A DNA stretch of 64,000 nucleotides from Planctomycetaceae bacterium (GTDB taxonomy: Bacteria; Planctomycetota; Planctomycetia; Planctomycetales; Planctomycetaceae): positions 124,001 through 188,000 of the forward strand of contig JANSXP010000007.1 of NCBI GenBank assembly GCA_024742875.1, given 5' to 3'. The translations under genes and the position numbers were made by a program. This document shows, piece after piece, positions 51,400 through 63,058 of the stretch (position 1 is its first letter; every line of letters starts with the position of its first letter). Under the pieces are notes generated by a model, which worked only from the letters and a program-made list of their open reading frames with translations, was not told the DNA's origin and ran no database searches.

Positions 51400-51734
51400 C
51401 TGCCTGCCCACTTAACAATGGTCGTGCTGTTAATGTCCGAATCTTAAACGGCCGTCATCTATTCGCATTTCCTCACGACCGCCATTCACTTTTTCTTAAA
51501 CACAAAGAAGTTCTCTTCATGTTTGCGCTGTGCGATTTGTGTGCGGGGAATGTTGTTTGTTGACGCGTGATGAAGATTGTTCGTTCAACAATAACATTGT
51601 GAATTAGCCGTTCACTTGATCACCCTGCCGTTGCCCAACGCGAAGGCAAACGTTGAAGTGCCGCCCGTGAGGCAGAAGCCGTTCTGCTGTTTTGATAGTC
51701 CACGCTGGCGGCTCTCAACAGGTTGCAGGTGAAG
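51400..51734. promoter_or_regulatory. AT-rich divergent control region
   Basis: About 330 bases, AT-rich compared with its surroundings, between two divergent genes. Two overlapping inverted repeats are visible: ATTGTT-5-AACAAT at 51576-51592 and ACAAT-3-ATTGT at 51588-51600. They are candidate operator sites for a regulator; the promoter boxes are not clear enough to name. Confidence 0.4.
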
Positions 51735-52691
51735 ATGAAATCTCTTCGGTCCGTCATCTATGTGTTTGGCACTGTTGCCATTGTGGCCACTCTGTATGCG
51801 GCCGGTCTGTTCCCGACCGGTTTGAGTGCCAGTGAAAAACTGGCGGCCACCTGGGCGGAGGATTTCGGCTGTCGCGCGAAAAGCAACGCCGCCGGTGAGG
51901 TGGTCCAGCTGAAGATTGGCAGCCCGCAGTTTGGCGATGCCGACTGTCGAAAGCTGTCCTGCATGCTGCAGCTGGAGTCGCTCGATCTGTCCGGCACCGG
52001 GATTACCGATGACGGCCTGGCCGAGCTGGCAAAGCTGCCGGCGCTGACGACCCTTAAACTTGCGGGGACGGCCGTGACCGATCAGGGGCTGGCCGTTCTG
52101 GCGACCGCTTCTGCTCTCCGGGAGCTGTCGCTGACACGCTGTTCTTTAAAACAACTGACCGTTGCCGGCGTTGGACAACTGACGTCGCTGAAGTCACTCA
52201 ATCTGATGGACACGCCCTTGGGAGATGATTCGGGCGAAGCGCTGGCGCGACTGGTCAACCTCGAGCAGCTGTACATCGGCCGCACGAGAATCTCATCCGA
52301 CATTCTTTCCTGGTTAACAGATCTGCCGAACATCCAGCTGCTGAATGTGGCGGGAGTCGCAGTGAATGAAGCCTCTGATATGCGGGCGCTGGGGCGTCTG
52401 CCCACCCTCGAACTGCTTTATCTGGACCGTGCCGAACTGAATGACGCCGCCTTTGGCGAACTGACGTCCGCGTTGAAAGGCAACGAGGACTGCCGCGTGT
52501 CGGCCATCTTTCTGGAAGGCTGTGACATCACAGATGCGTCGCGCGAATCACTGCTGGAACTGGTGCAGCTGCCAGCTTTGGGAAAGCTGCGTCTGACAGG
52601 CACACAGGTGTCGCGCGACGTGTTCAACGAGCTGGTGAAGGCGGCTCCTGAGATTTCCTATGCACACGGCAGCGGCCAGTCTGAGGACTGA
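51735..52691 (+). CDS. Leucine-rich repeat protein, membrane-anchored
   Basis: The 318-residue protein is started at ATG 51735 (AGG six bases upstream); TTG and GTG triplets lie just before. A hydrophobic segment at residues about 8-24 ([19 protein letters not shown]) is followed by at least nine LRRs ([52 protein letters not shown] and so on) ending with [17 protein letters not shown]. The repeats are the cysteine-free kind seen in the 3744 protein. It is probably an extracytoplasmic binding protein of unknown ligand. Confidence 0.8.
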
Positions 52692-52795
52692 CGGCCGCTC
52701 TGCCTGCGTGAAATATGTGTACACACAAACTGGAAAGAGCGCTGCTGTGACAGACGCTCTGACGTTCTCTTGTTTCCATCTTCGGAGAAACTGAC

Positions 52796-53869
52796 GTGAA
52801 AGACATGAAGCCGAGAGTCCTGCGACAGCGGGGTTTTACTCTCATTGAACTGCTGGTGGTGATTGCCATCATCGCCATCCTGATTTCGCTGCTGCTGCCG
52901 GCCGTGCAGCAGGCTCGAGAGGCGGCCCGACGCACGCAGTGCAAGAACAATCTGAAGCAGATTGGCATTGCCCTGCACAACTATCACGACATTCACAACA
53001 TGTTTCCCTGCGGTCTGTCCGGCTCAGTGGATGACAACTTTGGCTTTGACGACGACGGTTACGCGTGGGGCGTCATGCTGCTGCCGATGATCGAGCAGCA
53101 GAACCTTTACAATCAGCTGCCCATGACGGCGGGCGCCAACTGGGCGGGTACGCATACGGGAACGGACGAGAACGGTGGCATCGGTTTTGTGGCGGGTGCG
53201 GCCAACTACGGTGTACATCGCGATTACTATGCCAACTTCAGTGAACCCATTCCTGGTGCGGACACCGTGCTCAAGGCCTATCGCTGCCCCTCGTCCGCTT
53301 TGCCGGATCGCATTCCCCCGATCTACAGCAACGGTGGCCTGTCCTATGACTATGCGACCAATAAGCCGCACTGCGTAGGTTTTGGCGTGACTGACTACAA
53401 GATGTCGGGTGGATTTGGTGACCGTGGTTTTGGTGCCAAATCCCGCGACCTGTTCTTTGCCGGCCGAAACTTCAACACGCGAATTCGTGACATCACAGAT
53501 GGCACCAGTAACACCATCGCGATTGCGGAATCCGCCTACGCAGGTCGCAGCCTGAACGAAATGCCAGCGTGGATCAGCGGTGTCAACAGCGACGAAAACA
53601 GCCTGATCAAAACGCAGTATCCCTCTACCATCAATGCTCAGACCACGCCACAGAATCAGCCGGCCGCTACGGACGATGACAGCCCGTTCAGCTGGCACGT
53701 GGGTGGTGCCCAGTTCCTGTTTGCGGACGGATCTGTGACCTTCCTGAGTGAGAATCTGGATACCGGATACATCACAGAACCGATTGGTGATCCCTGGGCC
53801 GTAGACGGTGTCTTTGAGGCACTCGGTACAGCTGACGACGGCCTGCCCATCAGCGGCGACTCTTTCTAA
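52796..53869 (+). CDS. DUF1559 type IV pilin-like protein
   Basis: The 357-residue protein starts at GTG 52796 (GGAGA eight bases upstream). It has a type III signal, [35 protein letters not shown], with the cleavage Gly before Phe and Glu at position 5 of the mature protein. Next come the DUF1559 landmarks [17 protein letters not shown] and the late H-x9-DG element [15 protein letters not shown]. Such proteins are the most numerous pseudopilin-like proteins in planctomycetes. It may form part of a pilus or secretion pseudopilus. A terminator follows the stop. Confidence 0.94.
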
Positions 53870-53883
53870 ACGCCCGATCCATA

Positions 53884-53935
53884 CGAATCACCCCGCACAC
53901 CTTCGTACGGGGTGATTCGTTCCTTCTTTTGACAA
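53884..53935 (+). terminator. Terminator after the DUF1559 gene
   Basis: A perfect 12-bp stem (CGAATCACCCCG 53884-53895 / CGGGGTGATTCG 53908-53919) is followed by the T-rich TTCCTTCTTTT. Confidence 0.82.
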
Positions 53936-53965
53936 CGTATTTGCCGCTGCGAAAGACGCGATGCT

Positions 53966-54415
53966 ATGAAAATTCGAGCGACACTGAGCTCTTTGTGCCT
54001 TGTGACTTTTCTGCTGACCGCTTCCGGTTGCGGCAGTTCCGATGCGACGGCGCCGGTCACAGGCATCGTGACCCTGGACGGCAACCCCGTGTTTCCGGCA
54101 CGCGTCACCTTTACTCCCAAAGCGCAGGGCGGCTCCACAGATGCGGGAGTGGCCTCATCGGCCAGCACAGAACCGGATGGATCGTACTCCATCGACGCGG
54201 CACAGATTGGTGAGAACATCGTGGGTGTGATGGTGCTGCCAACAGATGAAGACAGTGAAGAAGCCGAAGACAACGAGCGACCACCGGTGGCCGGAAAGCC
54301 GGAAAAATCCATGTACACCGTGGAGTCGGGCGGCAGCCGGATCGACATTCGACTCACCACACCGCCGGCACCTGGCGGCAAGGGCCGCCGCAGAGGTGAT
54401 GATGAGGATGACTAG
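53966..54415 (+). CDS. Lipoprotein with carboxypeptidase regulatory-like fold
   Basis: The 149-residue protein has a lipobox (LLTASGC) after a signal peptide, then APVTGIVTLDGNPVFPARVTFTPK and PDGSYSIDAAQIGENIVGV, typical of the small beta-sandwich lipoproteins in planctomycete genomes that resemble carboxypeptidase regulatory domains. The end is acidic and basic in blocks (GGKGRRRGDDEDD). It often accompanies DUF1559 pilin-like genes, as here. Its function is unknown. Confidence 0.78.
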   Translation: MKIRATLSSLCLVTFLLTASGCGSSDATAPVTGIVTLDGNPVFPARVTFTPKAQGGSTDAGVASSASTEPDGSYSIDAAQIGENIVGVMVLPTDEDSEEAEDNERPPVAGKPEKSMYTVESGGSRIDIRLTTPPAPGGKGRRRGDDEDD

Positions 54416-54549
54416 TGTCCACAGAACATTGCACGCCGGGTCACCGAAAGAACGGTGCTTTGCCTGCGGTGGCACGTGACATGACGATGTCGTCCCGCTG
54501 TGCTCAGTCGATCTTTGACCGGAGCCGGTTGCCAGGACAATGAGGAGTG

Positions 54550-56148
54550 ATGGGCGTTTACAGTCGTTTTCTGCAGCATTCCGCCGCGCACCTGACCCGA
54601 CCGGTCGACGGTGCGTTTTTGGCGTTTTTTCGCTTCGCGGTGGGGGCCGCGTTTCTGTTCAGCTGCCTGTCGTACCTGACAACCGGCTGGGTGGAATACT
54701 TCTATGTCTCGCCGGCGTTCCACTTTAAGTATTTCGGATTTGAGTGGGTCCGTGTTCTGCCCGGAAACGGCATGCGGTGGCTGTTTCAGGCGCTTTGGGT
54801 GTGTGCCGTGCTGGTGGCGACCGGCACCTGTTATTGGATCAGTTCACTGCTGCTGGCGGTCGGCTACACGTATGTATTTCTGATTGACAAGTCGCAATAC
54901 CAGAATCACTACTACCTGCTGATGCTGACGGCCTGGTTGCTGGTGTTTGTCCCGGCTCAGCGCGTGTTCTCTGTTGATCGCTGGTGGGCCAGTCGTCGCG
55001 TCGGACAAAAGAAGGGACAGGGTGTGACTGTGCCTGGCTGGTGTCTGTGGCTGGTTCGATTTCAGGTGGCGCTGCCCTATTTCTTCGGCGGCATTGCCAA
55101 ACTCAACAGTGACTGGATTTATGGGCAGCCGATGCGGATGAAGCTGTCCAATTCCACCTGGTACCCCGTCATCGGCACCTTCTTCACGGAAGAATGGTGC
55201 GTGCAGATGTTCGTTTGGGGGGGCCTGCTGTTCGACCTTTTGGTGGTGCCGCTGCTGCTGTGGAAACGCACGCGGCTGGCTGCTTTCTTCGTTTCGCTCA
55301 GCTTTCACCTGATGAACGCCACGCTGTTCAGCATTGGCGTCTTTCCGTGGTTCATGATTCTGGCTACCACGGTCTTTTTCGAACCCGACTGGCCCCGGCT
55401 GTTCCGACGTCGCGTGTTACGAGGCCGCCCCCGCAGCGCCGCTGGGGCGGACGTAAGTCGTGACACGCCGCGCTGGCTGGTGGTGGGACTGATCGGATAT
55501 GTCGCCGTGCAGTTGCTGTTGCCATGGCGCCATCTGTTTTATCCGGGCAATGTGAGCTGGACCGAAGAGGGACACTTTTTTGCCTGGCACATGAAACTGC
55601 GCGACAAAAAAACCGTGTGCAAATTTCGCTGGCGGGATCCTCAGACTGACGAAATCGGGGATATCAACATTCTGCAGTTCATCACACAGCAGCAGGCGTC
55701 ACACGCGACCGGTGACCCGGAGATGATTGTGCAGTTTTGTCGGTTCTTAAAGCAGCAGATCAGCCGTCAGCGTGGTCGAGAGTGTGAGATCTACGCGCTC
55801 AACCTGACGTCCCTGAACGGCCGCAGACCACAGCCTTTGGTGAACCCCACCATGGATCTGGGCAGTGTGCCTCACGGCGTGTCATTGCCGGATTCCGTGT
55901 GCATGGCGCTGTCAGAGCCACTGCGCCCCTACAATCCCTGGCGTGTGCCGCGGGAAGAGTGGGTCCACCACATCGAAGTCGAGAACCACGAGTTCTGGTT
56001 TGGCGTCAAAGCCGCTGGTCGAGATCGTTCCACATGGCAGGTGCCCCGCCTGGTGTCACCCGAGCGGGAAGCTCAGAGCGGACGCCAACATTCAGGCACA
56101 AAGATGCGAGCCAGTCGCCGGTTGCTGGCCAGCGGAGGTGTTCGATGA
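54550..56148 (+). CDS. HTTM/vitamin K-dependent carboxylase-like protein 1
   Basis: The 532-residue polytopic protein has the HTTM fold of gamma-glutamyl carboxylase relatives. The diagnostic segments are DKSQYQNHYYL, whose His (about 120) matches the catalytic His of GGCX, and LPYFFGGIAKLNSDWIYG, whose Lys (about 184) matches the GGCX base Lys218. A soluble C-terminal part follows with TEEGHFFAWHMKLRDKK. It could carboxylate or oxygenate a substrate with a quinol; the bacterial reaction is unknown. The ATG at 54550 has an AGGAG only two bases away, so an upstream GTG may also be used. The stop overlaps the next gene (ATGA). Confidence 0.85.
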   Translation: MGVYSRFLQHSAAHLTRPVDGAFLAFFRFAVGAAFLFSCLSYLTTGWVEYFYVSPAFHFKYFGFEWVRVLPGNGMRWLFQALWVCAVLVATGTCYWISSLLLAVGYTYVFLIDKSQYQNHYYLLMLTAWLLVFVPAQRVFSVDRWWASRRVGQKKGQGVTVPGWCLWLVRFQVALPYFFGGIAKLNSDWIYGQPMRMKLSNSTWYPVIGTFFTEEWCVQMFVWGGLLFDLLVVPLLLWKRTRLAAFFVSLSFHLMNATLFSIGVFPWFMILATTVFFEPDWPRLFRRRVLRGRPRSAAGADVSRDTPRWLVVGLIGYVAVQLLLPWRHLFYPGNVSWTEEGHFFAWHMKLRDKKTVCKFRWRDPQTDEIGDINILQFITQQQASHATGDPEMIVQFCRFLKQQISRQRGRECEIYALNLTSLNGRRPQPLVNPTMDLGSVPHGVSLPDSVCMALSEPLRPYNPWRVPREEWVHHIEVENHEFWFGVKAAGRDRSTWQVPRLVSPEREAQSGRQHSGTKMRASRRLLASGGVR

Positions 56149-57671
56149 CAACCGGCACCATTCGCGTGGAACGCTTTATCAATGCTGCCTGGAAGTCAGT
56201 GGACGGTGCTTCGCTGGCTGCGTTTCGCGTCGTGTTTGGCCTCGGTGTGGCCGTCTATGCGATCAAGTCGCTGCTGCGTGGTGAAGTGCGGATGATCTTT
56301 GTCGAGCCGCAGTACCACTTCTCCTATTGGGGGTTTGAGTGGGTGAAGCCATGGCCTGGCAACGGCATGTATCTGCATTTTGCGGCGCTGGCTCTGAGTG
56401 GTCTGCTGGTGGCGGCCGGCATTGCTTATCGCGTCACCAGCGTTGTGATGGCGCTGTTGTTTTCCTTCATTTTTTTGAGCGATCGCACGGCCTATCTGAA
56501 CCACTACTATCTGATGGTCCTGCTGTGCTGGATGATGACCGTGATTCCGGCAGACCGCGTGTTGGCGGTGGATCAGTTGGGCGGTCGTGTCGGCAATCAG
56601 TGGGCGGGAACGCAGGATCGGCACAGCACCGAAAGCGTTCCCGCGTGGGCCCTGTGGCTGGTTCGCTTTCATATAGCCCTGCCCTATTTTTTTGGCGGGG
56701 TGGCCAAGCTGAGCGCCGACTGGCTGCAGGGACAGCCAATGCGGATGACACTCATGCAGCAGCCCGCCGTGGCGGACCTGGCGGAGATCGTGGGTGCGGA
56801 CTTTGTTGTCTACCTGTTCTCGATCGGAGGCATGCTGTTTGACCTGTCCGTGGTGCCCCTGCTGCTGTGGCGGCCAACTCGCAAACTGGCTTTCTGTCTG
56901 GTGCTGGGATTTCATTTGACCAATGCGTTTGTGTTTCCCATCGGCGTTTTTCCCTGGCTGATGATCGGCGCCACAACCATATTTTTTGAGCCGGACTGGC
57001 CGCGGCGTCTGCTGCGGACTGAGCCGATCGGTGCCGCCGCGAAGCCCGTTCGTGTTTCCCGTCGTCAGCGTACCGTGCTTATGGTCGTCTGTGGCTATGT
57101 GGTTTTTCATTGTGTGTTGCCGCTGCGTCACCTGGCCACGGCCAGTGATCCCAACTGGACGGAACGCGGTCACTTTTTCGCCTGGCACATGATGCTGCGA
57201 GGCAAACGCTGCGGACTGCGGATGTATTTGACCAGCCCCGAAACCGGGCAGACGCAGCCCGTCAATCTGCGGCGGTATGTGACTGAATATCAGTTTCCCA
57301 AAGTTGGTCGCGATCCGGAGCACATGCGGCAGCTGGCTCACATGATCGCCGACACGATCGAGAAAAAAACGGGCCTGCGCATGCAGGTCCGGGCGTTCGC
57401 GCTGGTTTCACTGAATGGGCGTCGCGCTGAACTGCTGGTGGATCCGACGGTGGATCTGGCACAGCGGCCAGCCACGTGGACGAGGCCCGCATGGATCAAC
57501 GAGTTGACAGAACCTGTGCGGCGAGAGCACTGGGACGTGCCACTGCTGGAATGGGAACAGGCGCTCGGACTGGATGCCGAAGCCATCATTCGTCAGTGGA
57601 ACCAGTCCGGACCCGCCCAGGTGAAGTCAGTGGGATCAGTCGCCGGGCAACCCGGTGGCCGGACTTTGTAA
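56145..57671 (+). CDS. HTTM/vitamin K-dependent carboxylase-like protein 2
   Basis: The 508-residue protein is a paralogue of the preceding gene, starting at the ATG at 56145 that overlaps its TGA (56146-56148); GGAGG is upstream. Both key segments recur: RTAYLNHYYL (His about 120) and LPYFFGGVAKLSADWLQG (Lys about 188), plus WTERGHFFAWHMMLRGKR in the soluble half. The two proteins are diverged over their lengths but keep the same architecture, so they could form a heterodimer. The frame upstream of this ATG is open only because it runs inside the first gene. Confidence 0.85.
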   Translation: MTTGTIRVERFINAAWKSVDGASLAAFRVVFGLGVAVYAIKSLLRGEVRMIFVEPQYHFSYWGFEWVKPWPGNGMYLHFAALALSGLLVAAGIAYRVTSVVMALLFSFIFLSDRTAYLNHYYLMVLLCWMMTVIPADRVLAVDQLGGRVGNQWAGTQDRHSTESVPAWALWLVRFHIALPYFFGGVAKLSADWLQGQPMRMTLMQQPAVADLAEIVGADFVVYLFSIGGMLFDLSVVPLLLWRPTRKLAFCLVLGFHLTNAFVFPIGVFPWLMIGATTIFFEPDWPRRLLRTEPIGAAAKPVRVSRRQRTVLMVVCGYVVFHCVLPLRHLATASDPNWTERGHFFAWHMMLRGKRCGLRMYLTSPETGQTQPVNLRRYVTEYQFPKVGRDPEHMRQLAHMIADTIEKKTGLRMQVRAFALVSLNGRRAELLVDPTVDLAQRPATWTRPAWINELTEPVRREHWDVPLLEWEQALGLDAEAIIRQWNQSGPAQVKSVGSVAGQPGGRTL

Positions 57672-57710
57672 CAGGGCGCCACAGGCGCACACTCTTTCAA
57701 GGCTTTCATC

Positions 57711-59201
57711 GTGGACAGTTGCTGGTACTACTATCTGTTTGGGGAACAGTTCGGTCCGGTGACGCGGCAGCAGCTGATCGAGCTTGCCGATGACGGCACC
57801 CTGTCGGCAACGGACAGGGTGCGGCACGCCAGTGGCGAGGTCTTGCAGGAGGTCCAGTCGGTGCTTGGCATCGACCGCCGTGAACGGACACCCGCACGAA
57901 GCACGGCTCCAGTGGCCTCACCACTGACCATGATGGCGGATTCGTCCGGCACAGTGGGTCAGAACGACCTGGGGCCCAGTATCGATGATTTTGTCATCGA
58001 AAAAACGTCCGACGACTCCCGCATCAGCCCCGCACTTTCACCGCCTTCGCAGTCTCCACTGCGGTCGTCCACACCGATGCAAAGAGAGCCGGCCACCGAA
58101 GAAGCGTTCTATCTGCGGTCCAGTGAGACGACCATTGGCCCGCTGACTCTGGACGCGCTGTGCCGCATGGCGGATGCCGGCAAGGTGGCGTCCGCAGATT
58201 ACATTCGTCGCGCGAGTGAATCCGGCTGGCATCCGGCCAGTGAGGTGCCGGAAGTGATGGCGGCTGTCCTCATGCAGGAGGCAAGCCGGCCGACAAAACG
58301 CAATCGCTCCCGTGATTCGGACGTACGTCGCCGCAGCAACAGCGGGCCGGGAGGCTCAGGCGTTCGTCCTCGGAAAGGTGGAAACGGGAAAAAGAAGCCA
58401 CGCACGCGCGATGAAAAACTGCAGGGCATCTTTGACGAGGTCTTTCAACAGGAGAAAGCGTCATCCGAAAAACGCGTCGCACCGTCGCCGTCAGTCGCAT
58501 CCCGTGCGGCGACTGAAGCGTCCACCGCCCCTGATCCCTCAACCATTTCGCAGACGCCATCGCCGGCTGACCTGACGGCAAACGCAGACATGGCCAGCGA
58601 CTCTGCCACGATGGCGGCGATGTCAGAGGCCGCGCTCGGCGGGTCGCCCGGGTTGAATTCACCCGGTATGGGAGGCCAGAGCATCGGGGCGGAAATGCCG
58701 TCCGCAGCCAGCAGTGGCCTCTACCGCGGTGGGGCTGCCGGCGCGATGGGCACGCAGCCGCCCGTGAAGCCATGGACTCCGCCGAAGAAAAAGAAATCGG
58801 GCGGCGGTATGGACCCCGATCTTTTGAGAAAGCTGGGCATCGGTGCAGGTGTCGTGGTCGCGCTGCTGCTGATCCCCGTGATCTGGTCGATACTGCCCGG
58901 ATCTCGCTCCGCGCCAGACAGCGGCACTGTCAAACCCGCCCTGATGGCCATGGTGGGGCGCTACGAGGCGGCCGCCGCGTCACCGGATTCATGGAAGGCG
59001 TTTCAGGAGCAAGTGCGGCCGCAGGCGGGGGCCTGGGTGAAGCAGTATCGCGCGGTCGGCCAGCGTACACCGGAACAGCTCAAGCTGCAGGAAGCCGCCA
59101 CACAACTGGTTCAACTGGTGAACTCCAAACACGACGACAAACAGAAACACGAGCAGTTTCTGGAAAAGATCAACGAGCAGCTCGGTGGTGTGGCGGGCTA
59201 G
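57711..59201 (+). CDS. GYF-domain (DUF4339) membrane protein
   Basis: The 496-residue protein starts at GTG 57711. Residues about 4-50 (WYYYLFGEQFGPVTRQQLIELADDGTL) and about 128-183 (AFYLRSSETTIGPLTLDALCRMADAGKV) are two GYF_2/DUF4339 domains. A basic, Lys/Arg-rich linker (RKGGNGKKKPRTRDEKLQG) and a Ser/Ala-rich stretch lead to one membrane helix (about 375-395; LGIGAGVVVALLLIPVIWSIL) and a helical C-terminal part. GYF_2 domains in planctomycetes are usually attached to membrane proteins of unknown function. It follows the HTTM pair by 39 bases and is likely in the same operon. Confidence 0.8.
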   Translation: MDSCWYYYLFGEQFGPVTRQQLIELADDGTLSATDRVRHASGEVLQEVQSVLGIDRRERTPARSTAPVASPLTMMADSSGTVGQNDLGPSIDDFVIEKTSDDSRISPALSPPSQSPLRSSTPMQREPATEEAFYLRSSETTIGPLTLDALCRMADAGKVASADYIRRASESGWHPASEVPEVMAAVLMQEASRPTKRNRSRDSDVRRRSNSGPGGSGVRPRKGGNGKKKPRTRDEKLQGIFDEVFQQEKASSEKRVAPSPSVASRAATEASTAPDPSTISQTPSPADLTANADMASDSATMAAMSEAALGGSPGLNSPGMGGQSIGAEMPSAASSGLYRGGAAGAMGTQPPVKPWTPPKKKKSGGGMDPDLLRKLGIGAGVVVALLLIPVIWSILPGSRSAPDSGTVKPALMAMVGRYEAAAASPDSWKAFQEQVRPQAGAWVKQYRAVGQRTPEQLKLQEAATQLVQLVNSKHDDKQKHEQFLEKINEQLGGVAG

Positions 59202-59406
59202 CCATCTGCTCTTTGACCTGACGGGCACCAGGTGTGTGCAGTGGTCCCTCGGCCGCAAGTCACCCCCTCCGCCCTGCGATCTTCATCTGTCGCCATCGCG
59301 GCGATACGGCGGCCGGCTCGCTGACTGGCGTGCAGCCCGTCTGCAACTGCCGGACGCCCACTTCGGTTTCCATTCTCTATTCTCCAACTCGTCCGAGGAA
59401 TCTGTC

Positions 59407-60933
59407 ATGCGTCCGTTTTTCTTATGTCTTGTGGCCGCCGTGCTGGCCTGCCCGGTGACCGCTCACGATGACTCTGAGAATCACGATCACCCTCCCCTGG
59501 CCGATGAGGTCGACGTGTACCGTCCGTCTCTGCGACCGGATCGCATCGTGCTCTCATGGCAGCGTGACCCGGCCACCACGCAGTCGGTGACCTGGCGGAC
59601 GTCCGTGGCCGTCACCCGTCCGCTGGCGGAGATTGCCATCGCCGGATCAGGGCCCGAATTCGTGTCTGCGGCGAAGCAGCTGGAAGGCACGGCCGAGCCG
59701 CTGCTGACCAACCTCGGTCCTGCGCATTTTCATACGGTCGAATTTACCGATCTCACTCCGTCCACAAAGTATGCGTACCGTGTGGGTGATGGTGTCAACT
59801 GGAGTGAATGGTTTCACTTCACCGCGGCCAGTGACAAAAGTGAGCCGTTTTCCTTTGTCTATTTTGGGGACGCCCAGAACGATGTGCGGTCGATGTGGTC
59901 CCGCGTGATTCGTGAAGCCTACGGTGACGCGCCCGACCTGAGTTTCTTTCTGCACGCTGGCGATCTGATCAATCGAGCCGAATCTGATGGAGAGTGGGGG
60001 CAGTGGTTTGCTGCCGGCAAATGGCTCAACGCCATGGTGCCCAGCGTCGCCGTGCCGGGCAATCATGAGCAGGCCCGGACGCTCGACGGCCGTAAGCTGT
60101 CGCATCACTGGCGGCCGCAGTTTGCCTTTCCCACCAACGGCCCGGAAGGTCTGGAGGAATCGTGTTACACGCTCGTGTATCAGGGCGTGCGTTTCATCGG
60201 CATGAACTCCAATGAGCGGCAGGACGAGCAGGCGGTGTGGCTGGAGCAGGTGCTGTCAGAAAACCAGTGCCCGTGGGTGATCTGTACGTTCCACCACCCC
60301 ATTTTCTCCACCGGCCGCGATCGTGACAACGCTGAACTGCGGTCGCTGTGGAAGCCCATTATCGACAAATATCATGTGGACCTTGTGCTGCAGGGGCACG
60401 ACCACACCTACGGCCGCACGGGCCTGGAGACGCCGCTGGCTGGCGATGTGGCGGCCAACGAGCCCACTGGCGTGAATAAGCGCGACCAGTCCACCGGCAC
60501 CGTCTATGTGGTGTCCGTCAGTGGTCCCAAAATGTACACGCTGCAGCGCTACGAGTTTATGAAGCGTCAGGCGGAAAACACGCAGCTGTATCAGATCATT
60601 CATGTGGACGGTGACGAACTGCGGTACGAGGCACGCACGGCCATCGGCGAGTTGTACGATGCGTTCACACTCAAAAAGCGGGAAGGACAGATCAATCAGC
60701 TGATTGAACAGATTCCCCCAACCCCGGAACGCGTGAAAACGGCCAAGACGGCGGCCAGTGAGGCCAACCGCTTCATCAAAAAGCTGATGGCCGAAAATGA
60801 CGTCAACAAAGACGCTCGTCTGACGCGGGAAGAAGTTCCTCCGCAGTACCGCGATCAGTTTGGCACCGTGGATGCCAACAAAGACGGCAGCGTCACACTC
60901 GCAGAGCTGCGACAGGCCCTGGGGAGTCGCTGA
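59407..60933 (+). CDS. Purple acid phosphatase-like metallophosphoesterase with EF-hands
   Basis: The start is placed at 59407, giving a signal peptide (MRPFFLCLVAAVLACPVTAHD) in a 508-residue protein. An N-terminal fibronectin-like domain (about 38-140) precedes the phosphoesterase domain with YFGDAQND, FLHAGDLIN, VPGNHEQ, TFHHPIFS and QGHDHTYGR. The motif GDLIN lacks the Tyr of true purple acid phosphatases, so the charge-transfer ligand is missing. The C-terminus carries two EF-hand loops (DVNKDARLTREE, DANKDGSVTLAEL), suggesting calcium control. The protein should act in the periplasm or outside. Confidence 0.85.
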   Translation: MRPFFLCLVAAVLACPVTAHDDSENHDHPPLADEVDVYRPSLRPDRIVLSWQRDPATTQSVTWRTSVAVTRPLAEIAIAGSGPEFVSAAKQLEGTAEPLLTNLGPAHFHTVEFTDLTPSTKYAYRVGDGVNWSEWFHFTAASDKSEPFSFVYFGDAQNDVRSMWSRVIREAYGDAPDLSFFLHAGDLINRAESDGEWGQWFAAGKWLNAMVPSVAVPGNHEQARTLDGRKLSHHWRPQFAFPTNGPEGLEESCYTLVYQGVRFIGMNSNERQDEQAVWLEQVLSENQCPWVICTFHHPIFSTGRDRDNAELRSLWKPIIDKYHVDLVLQGHDHTYGRTGLETPLAGDVAANEPTGVNKRDQSTGTVYVVSVSGPKMYTLQRYEFMKRQAENTQLYQIIHVDGDELRYEARTAIGELYDAFTLKKREGQINQLIEQIPPTPERVKTAKTAASEANRFIKKLMAENDVNKDARLTREEVPPQYRDQFGTVDANKDGSVTLAELRQALGSR

Positions 60934-60979
60934 AATGCGGCCGGCTGCCGGAATCGGGCATGATGTGATTTGGTCAGAC

Positions 60980-63058
60980 TTAGTGAATCAGCTGAAACTC
61001 ACTGCTGTTCAGATAGGCCCACATCATGTCTTCCACGGCCACTGGCAGGGCATTGCCGCCGCCCGGCTGGCTGGAAAGCTGACGAACGCGGCTCTTGAAG
61101 GCCGCCGCTTCTCGCTCGGTGGACTCGCGTGTCAGCATGGCCAGTGCCACCCGATCGAGCGTTTTGCTGACGGCCGGGCGACGTGACGTGCCAAGAATTG
61201 ACTGAGTCGCCTGCCGTATGGCGGCCGTCACCTCGTCACCGTTCATCATCACCAGTGCCTGCGCGATAGTGCCGTCAAACTCCATCGACTCGTCATTCTC
61301 ATCGGTATCAAACGAGCGGGTGAACTGGCTGATCCATTCGCGTCGGTGCTGAGAGTATTCTGACGCATCGGGAATCGGCTGTCCGGCGGCGGAGCGGATG
61401 GCCACGCGAATGCTCTCATACACCTGCTCGGGAGACATGCGGCGGACATACACACGACTGAACAGCGGAATCTCACCGCGATCTGGCTGGTCGATGTCAT
61501 TGGCAATCGTCAGGTCGCTGCTGAGCCGCCAGGCGCGACTGGCGCCAATCCAGACCATCAGGCGCTTGACGTCATAGTCAGACTTCACAAACGCTTCGGT
61601 CAGCATGTCGAGAAGTTCCGGGTGACTGACGGTCGCATGAGCTCCCATGTCATCGACCTGCGGCGTGAAGCCGTAGCCGAAAAAGTGGGCCCACATGCGG
61701 TTGACCATCGATCGGGCCACACGATGTGACGAGTCCTTTGCCAGCAGACGCGCGAGTGTCTGACGACGGTTCTCGCCACTGTCGCGTTCAATTTTCGTGC
61801 CGTCGTACTCCGGCAGAACGGCCTTTTGCAGCCCGCTGCGGGTGGAGAAGTACGTCATGCGGTCCTTGTCATGGGGTTTGTCCTGCAGCGTCCACGCCAG
61901 TCTGCGAACGCCCGTGTTGCCGGCGGCCGCCAGGGGCACCGACTTCTGCTGGGCATCTTTGAAGAACGCGTTTAATGCCCAGTACTCTTCCTGCAGATAG
62001 CCTTTGGTAAACGGATGATCGTGGCACTGCACGCAGCTGATCTGCTCGCCCAGAAACAGGCGGGCCGTCACGGCGGTGGCCGGCGTGGCTTCGTTGTTCA
62101 AATGTGCCAGCAGAAAATTGGTGGCCCCGTTTTCGTCGTTGCGACCGGAGGCGGAAATCAGCTCATCGACGGTCTGCATCCATGGCCTGTTTTCCTCGAA
62201 CATGTCCACGAGGTACTCGTACAGCTTCTCGCGATTCACGCCCCGTTTTTCGGTTCGCCCAATCAGCAGGTTGGTCCAGACCACGGCCAGATAAGAGGAC
62301 CGCTCTGAGTCGTCTGACATTTTCGCAATCAGCGCGTCATATTTCCGAGGACCGCCGTCGGTCAGAAAACTCTCGGACTCCTGCAGCGTGGGGATGCGGC
62401 CGGTGAATGTCAGATACACGCGGCGCAGCCACTCATAGTCCGACGCGGTGGGTGACGGCTGGATTCCCTGGTCATCCCATGCGGTCGCCAGAAAATCATC
62501 CAGACGACCGGTGACATCCTCATTGGTGAACTTCGCTGGCAGGTACTCCACCGGCTGTGGCCCGTTTTCCGCGACCACAGTTGGGCCCGGCTGGCGCTCC
62601 GTGGGCAGCTGATTTCGCATTTCCAAAGGAGCGACGGGAGCGAGTGTGTCTTCAGACTCACCATCGCTCTCCGTGTCGGGGTCACTGGCTGTTCCCGGGG
62701 ACAGCACAAAATTGGCCGCGCCGCCCGGCTGCTGCAGCTGCGAGACAACGACTGCGCACAACACAATCGCAGCCGCAGCCGCCAGCGTGGCCGTCAGTCG
62801 GCGTGCGGATGGCCTGTTTGCCGATGGGGCCGAAGATCGGGCCACAGAAGCGGCCGGTTCCACGAGGTCGGTGCTGCGGGAAACAGACAGGCCGGCATCC
62901 CAGTGCAGCTGAGCGTGGATCACGCTGTAGTCAACGTAATCATCAACCAGCTGCGGGTTTGATCGCAGCAGTTCATTCAGGCGGCCGTTCTGATCGACGG
63001 TCAGTCGATCTTCCACCTGCAGGTTCAGCAGCTGAAACAGTTCTTCACGGGGATTCAT
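60980..63058 (-). CDS. DUF1549/DUF1553 protein with anti-sigma-like N-terminus
   Basis: The 692-residue protein starts at ATG 63058 (GAGGG nine bases upstream), two bases after the sigma factor stop. Residues 1-50 (ELFQLLNLQVEDRLTVDQNGRLNELLRSNPQLVDDYVDYSVIHAQLHWD) resemble the N-terminal helices of planctomycete anti-sigma/FecR-like proteins. A membrane helix (about 87-104) follows, then DUF1549 (LRRVYLTFTGRIPTLQES, CVQCHDHPF) and DUF1553 (SMVNRMWAHFFGYGFTPQVDDMG, YVRRMSPEQVYESIR). DUF1549/1553 proteins usually pair with DUF1501 proteins, as here. The fusion suggests the sigma factor is held by its own operon partner. Confidence 0.88.
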   Translation of the reverse strand: MNPREELFQLLNLQVEDRLTVDQNGRLNELLRSNPQLVDDYVDYSVIHAQLHWDAGLSVSRSTDLVEPAASVARSSAPSANRPSARRLTATLAAAAAIVLCAVVVSQLQQPGGAANFVLSPGTASDPDTESDGESEDTLAPVAPLEMRNQLPTERQPGPTVVAENGPQPVEYLPAKFTNEDVTGRLDDFLATAWDDQGIQPSPTASDYEWLRRVYLTFTGRIPTLQESESFLTDGGPRKYDALIAKMSDDSERSSYLAVVWTNLLIGRTEKRGVNREKLYEYLVDMFEENRPWMQTVDELISASGRNDENGATNFLLAHLNNEATPATAVTARLFLGEQISCVQCHDHPFTKGYLQEEYWALNAFFKDAQQKSVPLAAAGNTGVRRLAWTLQDKPHDKDRMTYFSTRSGLQKAVLPEYDGTKIERDSGENRRQTLARLLAKDSSHRVARSMVNRMWAHFFGYGFTPQVDDMGAHATVSHPELLDMLTEAFVKSDYDVKRLMVWIGASRAWRLSSDLTIANDIDQPDRGEIPLFSRVYVRRMSPEQVYESIRVAIRSAAGQPIPDASEYSQHRREWISQFTRSFDTDENDESMEFDGTIAQALVMMNGDEVTAAIRQATQSILGTSRRPAVSKTLDRVALAMLTRESTEREAAAFKSRVRQLSSQPGGGNALPVAVEDMMWAYLNSSEFQLIH

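Follow-up and report, generated by a model that had tools for sequence, protein, structure and literature searches.

A 64,000-nucleotide stretch of the genome of a Planctomycetaceae bacterium (assembly GCA_024742875.1, contig JANSXP010000007.1, positions 124,001 to 188,000 of the forward strand), referred to here as the window, encodes two full-length proteins of the VKGC/GGCX type, whose similarity to human gamma-glutamyl carboxylase (GGCX) is far beyond chance. The best reading of their sequences is that they are active menaquinol-dependent carboxylases. Two genes upstream of the first copy lies a DUF1559 pilin-like protein that belongs to a subfamily linked to VKGC genes, and the evidence is evenly balanced on the combined proposal that both enzymes are active as menaquinol-dependent carboxylases and that this protein is their likely dedicated substrate. 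The comparisons below draw on 70 planctomycete VKGC loci, consisting of 69 fetched stretches and the window, some of which end near a contig end, and on 392 genomes of the phylum.

Two VKGC-type enzymes with a conserved active site

Both copies contain an HTTM domain (272 bits in copy 1 and 247 bits in copy 2) and a VKGC lumenal domain (VKGC_lumenal_dom, PF22777; 127 and 113 bits, respectively), each domain having a Pfam cut-off of 27.7 bits. In a search of PDB sequences at E<=0.001, human GGCX was the best match of either copy (E 3.7e-40 for copy 1 and 9e-33 for copy 2), and the only match other than GGCX was one antibody sequence, found with copy 1 alone (E 4.6e-4). The copies share 40.0% identity with each other and 28.3% (copy 1) and 25.3% (copy 2) with human GGCX. 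Across the 8.18-Mb genome, HTTM matches occur at four places and lumenal-domain matches in copies 1 and 2 only; a scan of five window proteins against NCBIfam returned zero matches. Copy 1 starts at GTG 54547 or ATG 54550, giving a product of 533 or 532 amino acids, and copy 2 encodes 508 amino acids from ATG 56145, the longest in-frame open reading frame (ORF) beginning at 55899. The two genes meet at GGAGGTGTTCGATGAC in an ATGA overlap, and GGAGG lies immediately 5' of the copy 2 ATG. The tandem, overlapping HTTM carboxylase-like paralogues described in the initial annotation are thus present, with GGCX-type domains above cut-off.

The same annotation had equated a His and a Lys of each copy with His160 and Lys218 of the human enzyme. 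Indeed, PDB sequence alignments place human His160 opposite the His of NHYYL and Lys218 opposite the Lys of GG(I/V)AKL in both copies, and the correspondence is further supported by the whole-length superposition of the copy 1 model described below. Conservation of these positions was evaluated by aligning human GGCX 54-519 with 74 bacterial VKGC from the planctomycete loci, both window copies included; the 74 are the ORFs spanning >=330 profile positions out of 78 VKGC ORFs at the 70 loci, leaving out a 136-amino-acid piece of a broken gene at locus L063 (its 378-amino-acid piece being kept) and three L114 pieces. The equivalents of human Lys218, Phe286 and Trp399 are kept in all 74 sequences, those of His160, Asn159, Trp223 and Phe299 in 73, those of Asn290 and Gly259 in 69 each, and that of Met401 in 68, so that retention of the His and Lys extends from the two copies to nearly all of the relatives aligned. 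The sole His160 exception is a relative at L069 7726-9564, which has Gly at this position and retains the Lys218 equivalent. Four other VKGC (L127, L128, L129 and L130) are 611-773 amino acids long and match the profile in two stretches, perhaps representing a subtype with an insert.

According to the available text of a 2025 cryo-EM paper on human GGCX (PMC12589487), the source of the roles given here for all aligned residues except Trp399, Lys218 acts in catalysis and Lys217 in substrate binding. Both window copies share with the human enzyme Lys218, His160, Asn159, Phe286, Phe294, Phe299, Trp223, Trp399, Gly258, Gly259, Asn290 and Met401, and among these the residues of the vitamin K pocket and tunnel are H160, F286, F294, F299, W223, M401, G258, G259 and N290. 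Other human tunnel residues are changed in both copies, namely V210 (Pro), A214 (Gly), V254 (Met/Leu) and V255 (Phe). Across the alignment, human Leu394 is replaced by Gly in 67/74 and His404 by Arg in 55/74, and the window copies have neither the Lys217 nor the C99-C450 disulfide of the animal GGCX subgroup. Since catalytic and vitamin K residues are retained whereas Lys217, Cys99, Tyr395 and others are changed, the chemistry appears to be kept and the substrate side to be remodelled. The Lys218 equivalent alone is not diagnostic, because two further HTTM proteins encoded in this genome (L003 on contig 28 and L004 on contig 152) have a Lys at this position with no His160 equivalent and no lumenal-domain match.

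The fold was modelled for copy 1 only, with AlphaFold2 and an alignment of 50 window and locus sequences (mean pLDDT 90.2, pTM 0.87). A Foldseek search with the model gave 16 chains at E<=0.001, all of them GGCX. By VIA-align, the model superposes over its whole length on the GGCX entry 9wfc (Z 34.5, root mean square deviation 3.2, 468 residues), the first unrelated chain reaching Z 5.3.

Supply of the cofactor

Menaquinol is probably available in this bacterium, because its genome contains two menaquinone-biosynthesis matches to PF02621 (VitK2_biosynth), a family that we take to be of the MqnA/MqnD type. The genome also holds one VKOR match, in a 623-amino-acid ORF (L254 5151-7022, contig 135) that on visual inspection resembles a VKOR-thioredoxin fusion and contains a repeated EFGAP stretch; such fusions serve disulfide formation. 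With menaquinone genes and a fusion-like VKOR match in the genome, the initial description of a bacterium without the vitamin K cycle needs to be qualified. VKOR is found in 23/44 VKGC-positive vs 57/348 VKGC-negative genomes across the phylum (p 5e-7) and in 6/13 vs 9/20 within the window's family (p 1.0); its co-occurrence was rejected as evidence because VKOR does not track VKGC inside this family.

A DUF1559 subfamily linked to VKGC

When the 697 ORFs found up to 6 kb from VKGC at the 70 loci were clustered, DUF1559 proteins emerged as the commonest neighbour, present at 24 loci, with 21 of the 26 ORFs on the VKGC strand and 22 of 26 upstream. A DUF1559 gene lies within 1 kb of VKGC at 24/44 loci of the window's class (20/38 in the window's family and 4/6 in a second family), vs about 2.4% expected per locus from the 63 DUF1559 matches in the 8.18 Mb of the window genome, an expectation that is rough since DUF1559 density may be higher in other genomes and the loci are non-independent. 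The window protein matches the PF07596 family profile and carries an N-terminal methylation motif.

In trees built from 71 of 77 hits (250-520 amino acids), 21 of the 27 DUF1559 proteins from VKGC loci form one group, and the other six fall outside it. The group stands apart from 44 paralogues of the window genome, which come from 40 fetched stretches and represent part of its 63 matches; its support is 95 in a quick tree and 75/88, with 73% of bootstraps, in a careful tree whose figure we prefer. In particular, several residues distinguish the linked group from the paralogues: Asp86 (76% vs 5%), Lys202 (71% vs 0%), Asp266 (76% vs 14%), Glu267 (81% vs 2%), Asp294 (90% vs 5%) and Asp295 (90% vs 2%). 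Among the Glu columns conserved in >=60% of the linked group, that of Glu267 alone is nearly absent from the paralogues. Eight held-out proteins that had not been used to find the motifs all carry Asp86, Lys202, Asp294 and Asp295, and 6/8 carry Glu267; seven of them are VKGC-adjacent high scorers found through VKGC, which test the residues and not the linkage. The remaining one is an orphan, taken from a genome that is VKGC-positive. The seven VKGC-adjacent proteins emerged at 339-487 bits from a set of 80 genome_contigs loci, in which an L182 protein and two L195 pieces reached <=218 bits and the other hits repeat known loci. Members of the linked group are encoded beside VKGC in Blastopirellula marina DSM 3645 and Thalassoglobus neptunius KOR42. 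A divergent pair of DUF1559 proteins at L104 10012-11319 and L066 11075-12598 (114 and 107 bits) groups together in the tree, is located next to VKGC genes of a separate branch and is perhaps a second partner type.

Among the genomes scored, high matches to the subfamily were also confined to VKGC-positive ones. The 392 genomes were divided into 44 VKGC-positive (E<=0.001; 43 of them above the curated cut-off) and 348 VKGC-negative ones, and a subfamily profile made from 16 linked DUF1559 proteins was used to score the five best first-look candidates of each genome. Sixteen places scored 374-506 bits, the next best being 298 bits, and one profile seed, an L065 ORF without its N-terminal part, scored at background level (274.7 bits). 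High scores occurred in 13/44 VKGC-positive vs 0/348 VKGC-negative genomes (Fisher p 7.7e-14) and, within the window's family, in 10/13 vs 0/20 (p 3e-6), p values that are optimistic owing to the relatedness of the genomes. For fifteen of the 16 places, a VKGC match is found no more than a few kb away; the remaining one (L251 3108-4142, contig 13 of genome G291) is an orphan VKGC-type DUF1559 with no VKGC match on its contig, in a genome that is VKGC-positive. The genus of the window is patchy for VKGC (2/8 genomes positive), and when the window DUF1559 protein was searched in 58 relatives it scored 581 bits in the VKGC-positive same-genus genome G270 and <=156 bits in six VKGC-negative ones of the same genus.

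A proposed carboxylation system

By analogy with human GGCX, each of the two enzymes, probably working alone, would use its Lys218 equivalent to deprotonate menaquinol, after which O2 would yield a strong base and an epoxide; the base would then take the gamma-proton of a Glu positioned close to the His160 equivalent, and CO2 would add. The lumenal domain would face the periplasm, and the cognate substrate would be the pilin-like DUF1559 protein of the linked subfamily, encoded two genes upstream, in which Asp85-87, Asp266-Glu267 and Asp293-295 may form a Ca2+ site with gamma-carboxyglutamate (Gla) at Glu267. Copies 1 and 2 stem from an older duplication and may split substrates between them. 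Of this scheme, the family, the domain architecture, the conserved active site, the copy 1 fold, the menaquinone genes and the genomic linkage are observed, whereas catalysis, membrane topology, the substrate, calcium binding and the role of the second copy are inferred. Extended to planctomycetes at large, this would amount to a menaquinol-driven Gla system in which VKGC carboxylates a DUF1559 surface subfamily and so gives it a calcium-binding Gla site, a generalization that we put forward tentatively and consider somewhat more likely to fail than to hold. If it is true, bacteria use vitamin K-dependent protein carboxylation on surface proteins and have substrates of their own for it.

Several observations weigh against the assignment of the DUF1559 protein as the substrate of active carboxylases. 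On the side of the enzymes, human substrate-side residues differ: Lys217 is Ala in 67/74 bacterial sequences and Lys in none, no sequence has Cys at the Cys99 position, and Tyr395 is His in 48/74, including both copies. On the side of the protein, only one Glu is specific to the subfamily, and the overall Glu content shows no increase (3.3% vs 3.6%); human Gla domains contain several Glu. Gln stands at the Glu267 position in 2/8 held-out and 2/21 discovery members, and two more of the 21 have another residue that is not Glu. The support for the linked group is moderate in the careful tree, and the pilin similarity of the protein model is weak, the ten entries listed being all pilins or pseudopilins with a best Z of 4.4 (PilA4) and PulG at Z 3.8. 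Moreover, 14 of the 16 high-scoring places are seeds of the profile, so that their scores are built in, the other two being a near-copy in G045 and the orphan in G291, and the search was confined to five candidates per genome. Finally, 31/44 VKGC-positive genomes have no high subfamily match, and none of the 26 fetched loci outside the window's class has a DUF1559 gene up to 3 kb from VKGC. The linked DUF1559 is thus a partner of one VKGC branch and not of all, and these last two observations imply that other VKGC enzymes need other substrates.

Alternative explanations

The VKGC enzymes could be active on a different protein, the small lipoprotein encoded between the DUF1559 and VKGC genes, DUF1559 being merely a usual neighbour. 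Such lipoproteins are the second commonest VKGC neighbour (18/70 loci, at a median of 124 bases, the window's own lying outside this group), and the orthologues in the window and at the same-genus locus L062 have in common the acidic stretch DSEEAED(N/E)ERPP. However, the alignment shows little conservation in this stretch, which is replaced by a CxC motif in the lipoproteins of L087, L089, L098, L100, L101, L111 and L124, and a comparison of 17 linked with 12 background lipoproteins, some of whose ORFs have doubtful upstream extensions, did not sustain an acidic character (p 0.18 and 0.054); we consider this substrate unlikely. Neither is it probable, to a like degree, that the enzymes oxidise menaquinol to modify a target other than protein Glu, such as a small molecule or a lipid, or to serve a redox role, as has reportedly been proposed for the VKGC homologue of Leptospira. 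Conservation of the vitamin K pocket without the human substrate-coupling residues would suit such a role, whereas the retained lumenal domain, the co-occurrence of a specific protein neighbour and the conservation of the Glu-binding N159 and of H160 (each in 73/74) argue against it. Less probable still is that the genes are linked as a co-inherited block, mobile or operonic, and are not related as enzyme and substrate. The patchy distribution within the genus is consistent with such a block, yet the linked DUF1559 genes lie up- or downstream and on either strand across genera and nonetheless form one subfamily with special residues, and the orphan occurs on a VKGC-free contig of a VKGC-positive genome.

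The initial annotation also raised the possibility of a heterodimer and the question of whether the two genes are always paired in relatives, and we regard an obligate heterodimer of copies 1 and 2 as very improbable. The ATGA overlap, the catalytic residues retained in both copies and the preservation of orthologues of both in G270 speak for it. Two adjacent VKGC ORFs are nonetheless found at only 5/70 loci (the window, L062, L063, L065 and L066), the other 65 having no pair, although some are cut by contig ends, and an intact pair at 1/80 genome_contigs loci is apparently the L065 locus of G408 again; universal tandem pairing was therefore rejected. VKGC places outside the 70 loci include those of G040, G205, G280, G188, G389, G420 and G422. 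In a VKGC tree made by a quick method from 71 of 75 rows, copy 1 of the window groups with copy 1 of L062 (100) and copy 2 with copy 2 (100), copy 2 of the window clusters with enzymes from other genera that are not in tandem (92), and the two L065 copies are sisters (100), indicating a separate duplication. By this tree, tandem copies arose more than once. In the second tandem locus of G270 (L063 10009-12799), one copy is interrupted by an ORF with a match to DDE_Tnp_1 transposases. Because pairs are rare among the loci and the L065 pair duplicated separately, a heterodimer is unnecessary, and the reading of two carboxylases that probably work alone is preferred.

Genomic neighbourhood

The features of the region are collected in Table 1. 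The phosphatase ORF spans 59185-60933, its start having been inferred by hand from a signal-peptide-like N-terminus; similar proteins are the third commonest VKGC neighbour (12/70 loci). The same-genus locus L062 retains LRR-like ORFs, DUF1559, the lipoprotein, both VKGC and the phosphatase. The GYF-domain protein had been suggested as a partner; its matches among the 70 loci are restricted to the window and L062, with none at the examined loci of other genera, and it was rejected as a conserved partner. A promoter scan gave 2 sites vs 1.9 expected, and terminator-like sites in 52400-61000 of the window number 16 vs 7.2 expected by shuffling, many of them inside genes.

Table 1. Features of the VKGC region, in window coordinates
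Feature	Position	Strand	Basis and remarks
LRR protein	51723..52691	+	Pfam; similar ORFs near VKGC at 4/70 loci including the window
DUF1559/SBP_bac_10 (PF07596) pilin-like protein, VKGC-linked subfamily; proposed substrate	52796..53869	+	Pfam, trees, profile, model
Codon Glu267 (SDE motif, numbered from GTG 52796), candidate carboxylated Glu	53594..53596	+	Alignments
Small lipoprotein-like protein, between DUF1559 and VKGC	53966..54415	+	Similar genes recur in the cassette; no Pfam match
VKGC copy 1 (HTTM and VKGC lumenal domain)	54550..56148	+	ORF, Pfam, PDB sequence match, alignment, model
Codon His120 of copy 1 (faces human His160)	54907..54909	+	Alignment
Codon Lys184 of copy 1 (faces human Lys218)	55099..55101	+	Alignment
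VKGC copy 2 (HTTM and VKGC lumenal domain)	56145..57671	+	ORF, Pfam, PDB sequence match, alignment
Codon His120 of copy 2 (faces human His160)	56502..56504	+	Alignment; position hand-counted from translation
Codon Lys188 of copy 2 (faces human Lys218)	56706..56708	+	Alignment; position hand-counted from translation
GYF_2-domain protein	57711..59201	+	Pfam; adjacent to copy 2
Purple-acid-phosphatase-like metallophosphoesterase, weak C-terminal EF-hand matches	59407..60933	+	Frequent neighbour

Comparison with known systems

The window enzymes belong to a family that is already known. At least 562 bacterial VKGC relatives were confirmed, the 80 listed spanning many phyla, and Leptospira VKGC is a bacterial homologue of this kind. 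HTTM in bacteria has already been linked with vitamin K-dependent carboxylation in the available text of a review (PMC5343777). In the open-licence literature searched, no paper was found that treats DUF1559 and the carboxylase together, and none of its available passages names a substrate of a bacterial VKGC. A co-occurring dedicated neighbour with a specific candidate Glu allows the purpose of bacterial VKGC chemistry to be tested directly, by mass spectrometry of named strains.

Compared with human GGCX, copy 1 is predicted by its model to share the fold over about 470 residues, whereas the human enzyme has 758 amino acids and most of its C-terminal part is absent from the window copies (508-533 amino acids). 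HTTM proteins without the lumenal domain, presumably of the SdpB type, have the HTTM domain in common with the window copies, and two of them in the same genome share the Lys at the Lys218 position. With regard to DUF1559 proteins, the available text of a study of Rhodopirellula baltica reports 74 such genes and describes them as a solute-binding family (PMC2754498). Within PF07596 at large, the VKGC-linked subfamily is set apart by its DDDG, SDE and DDD motifs and by Lys202, which are largely absent from the 44 paralogues of the window genome.

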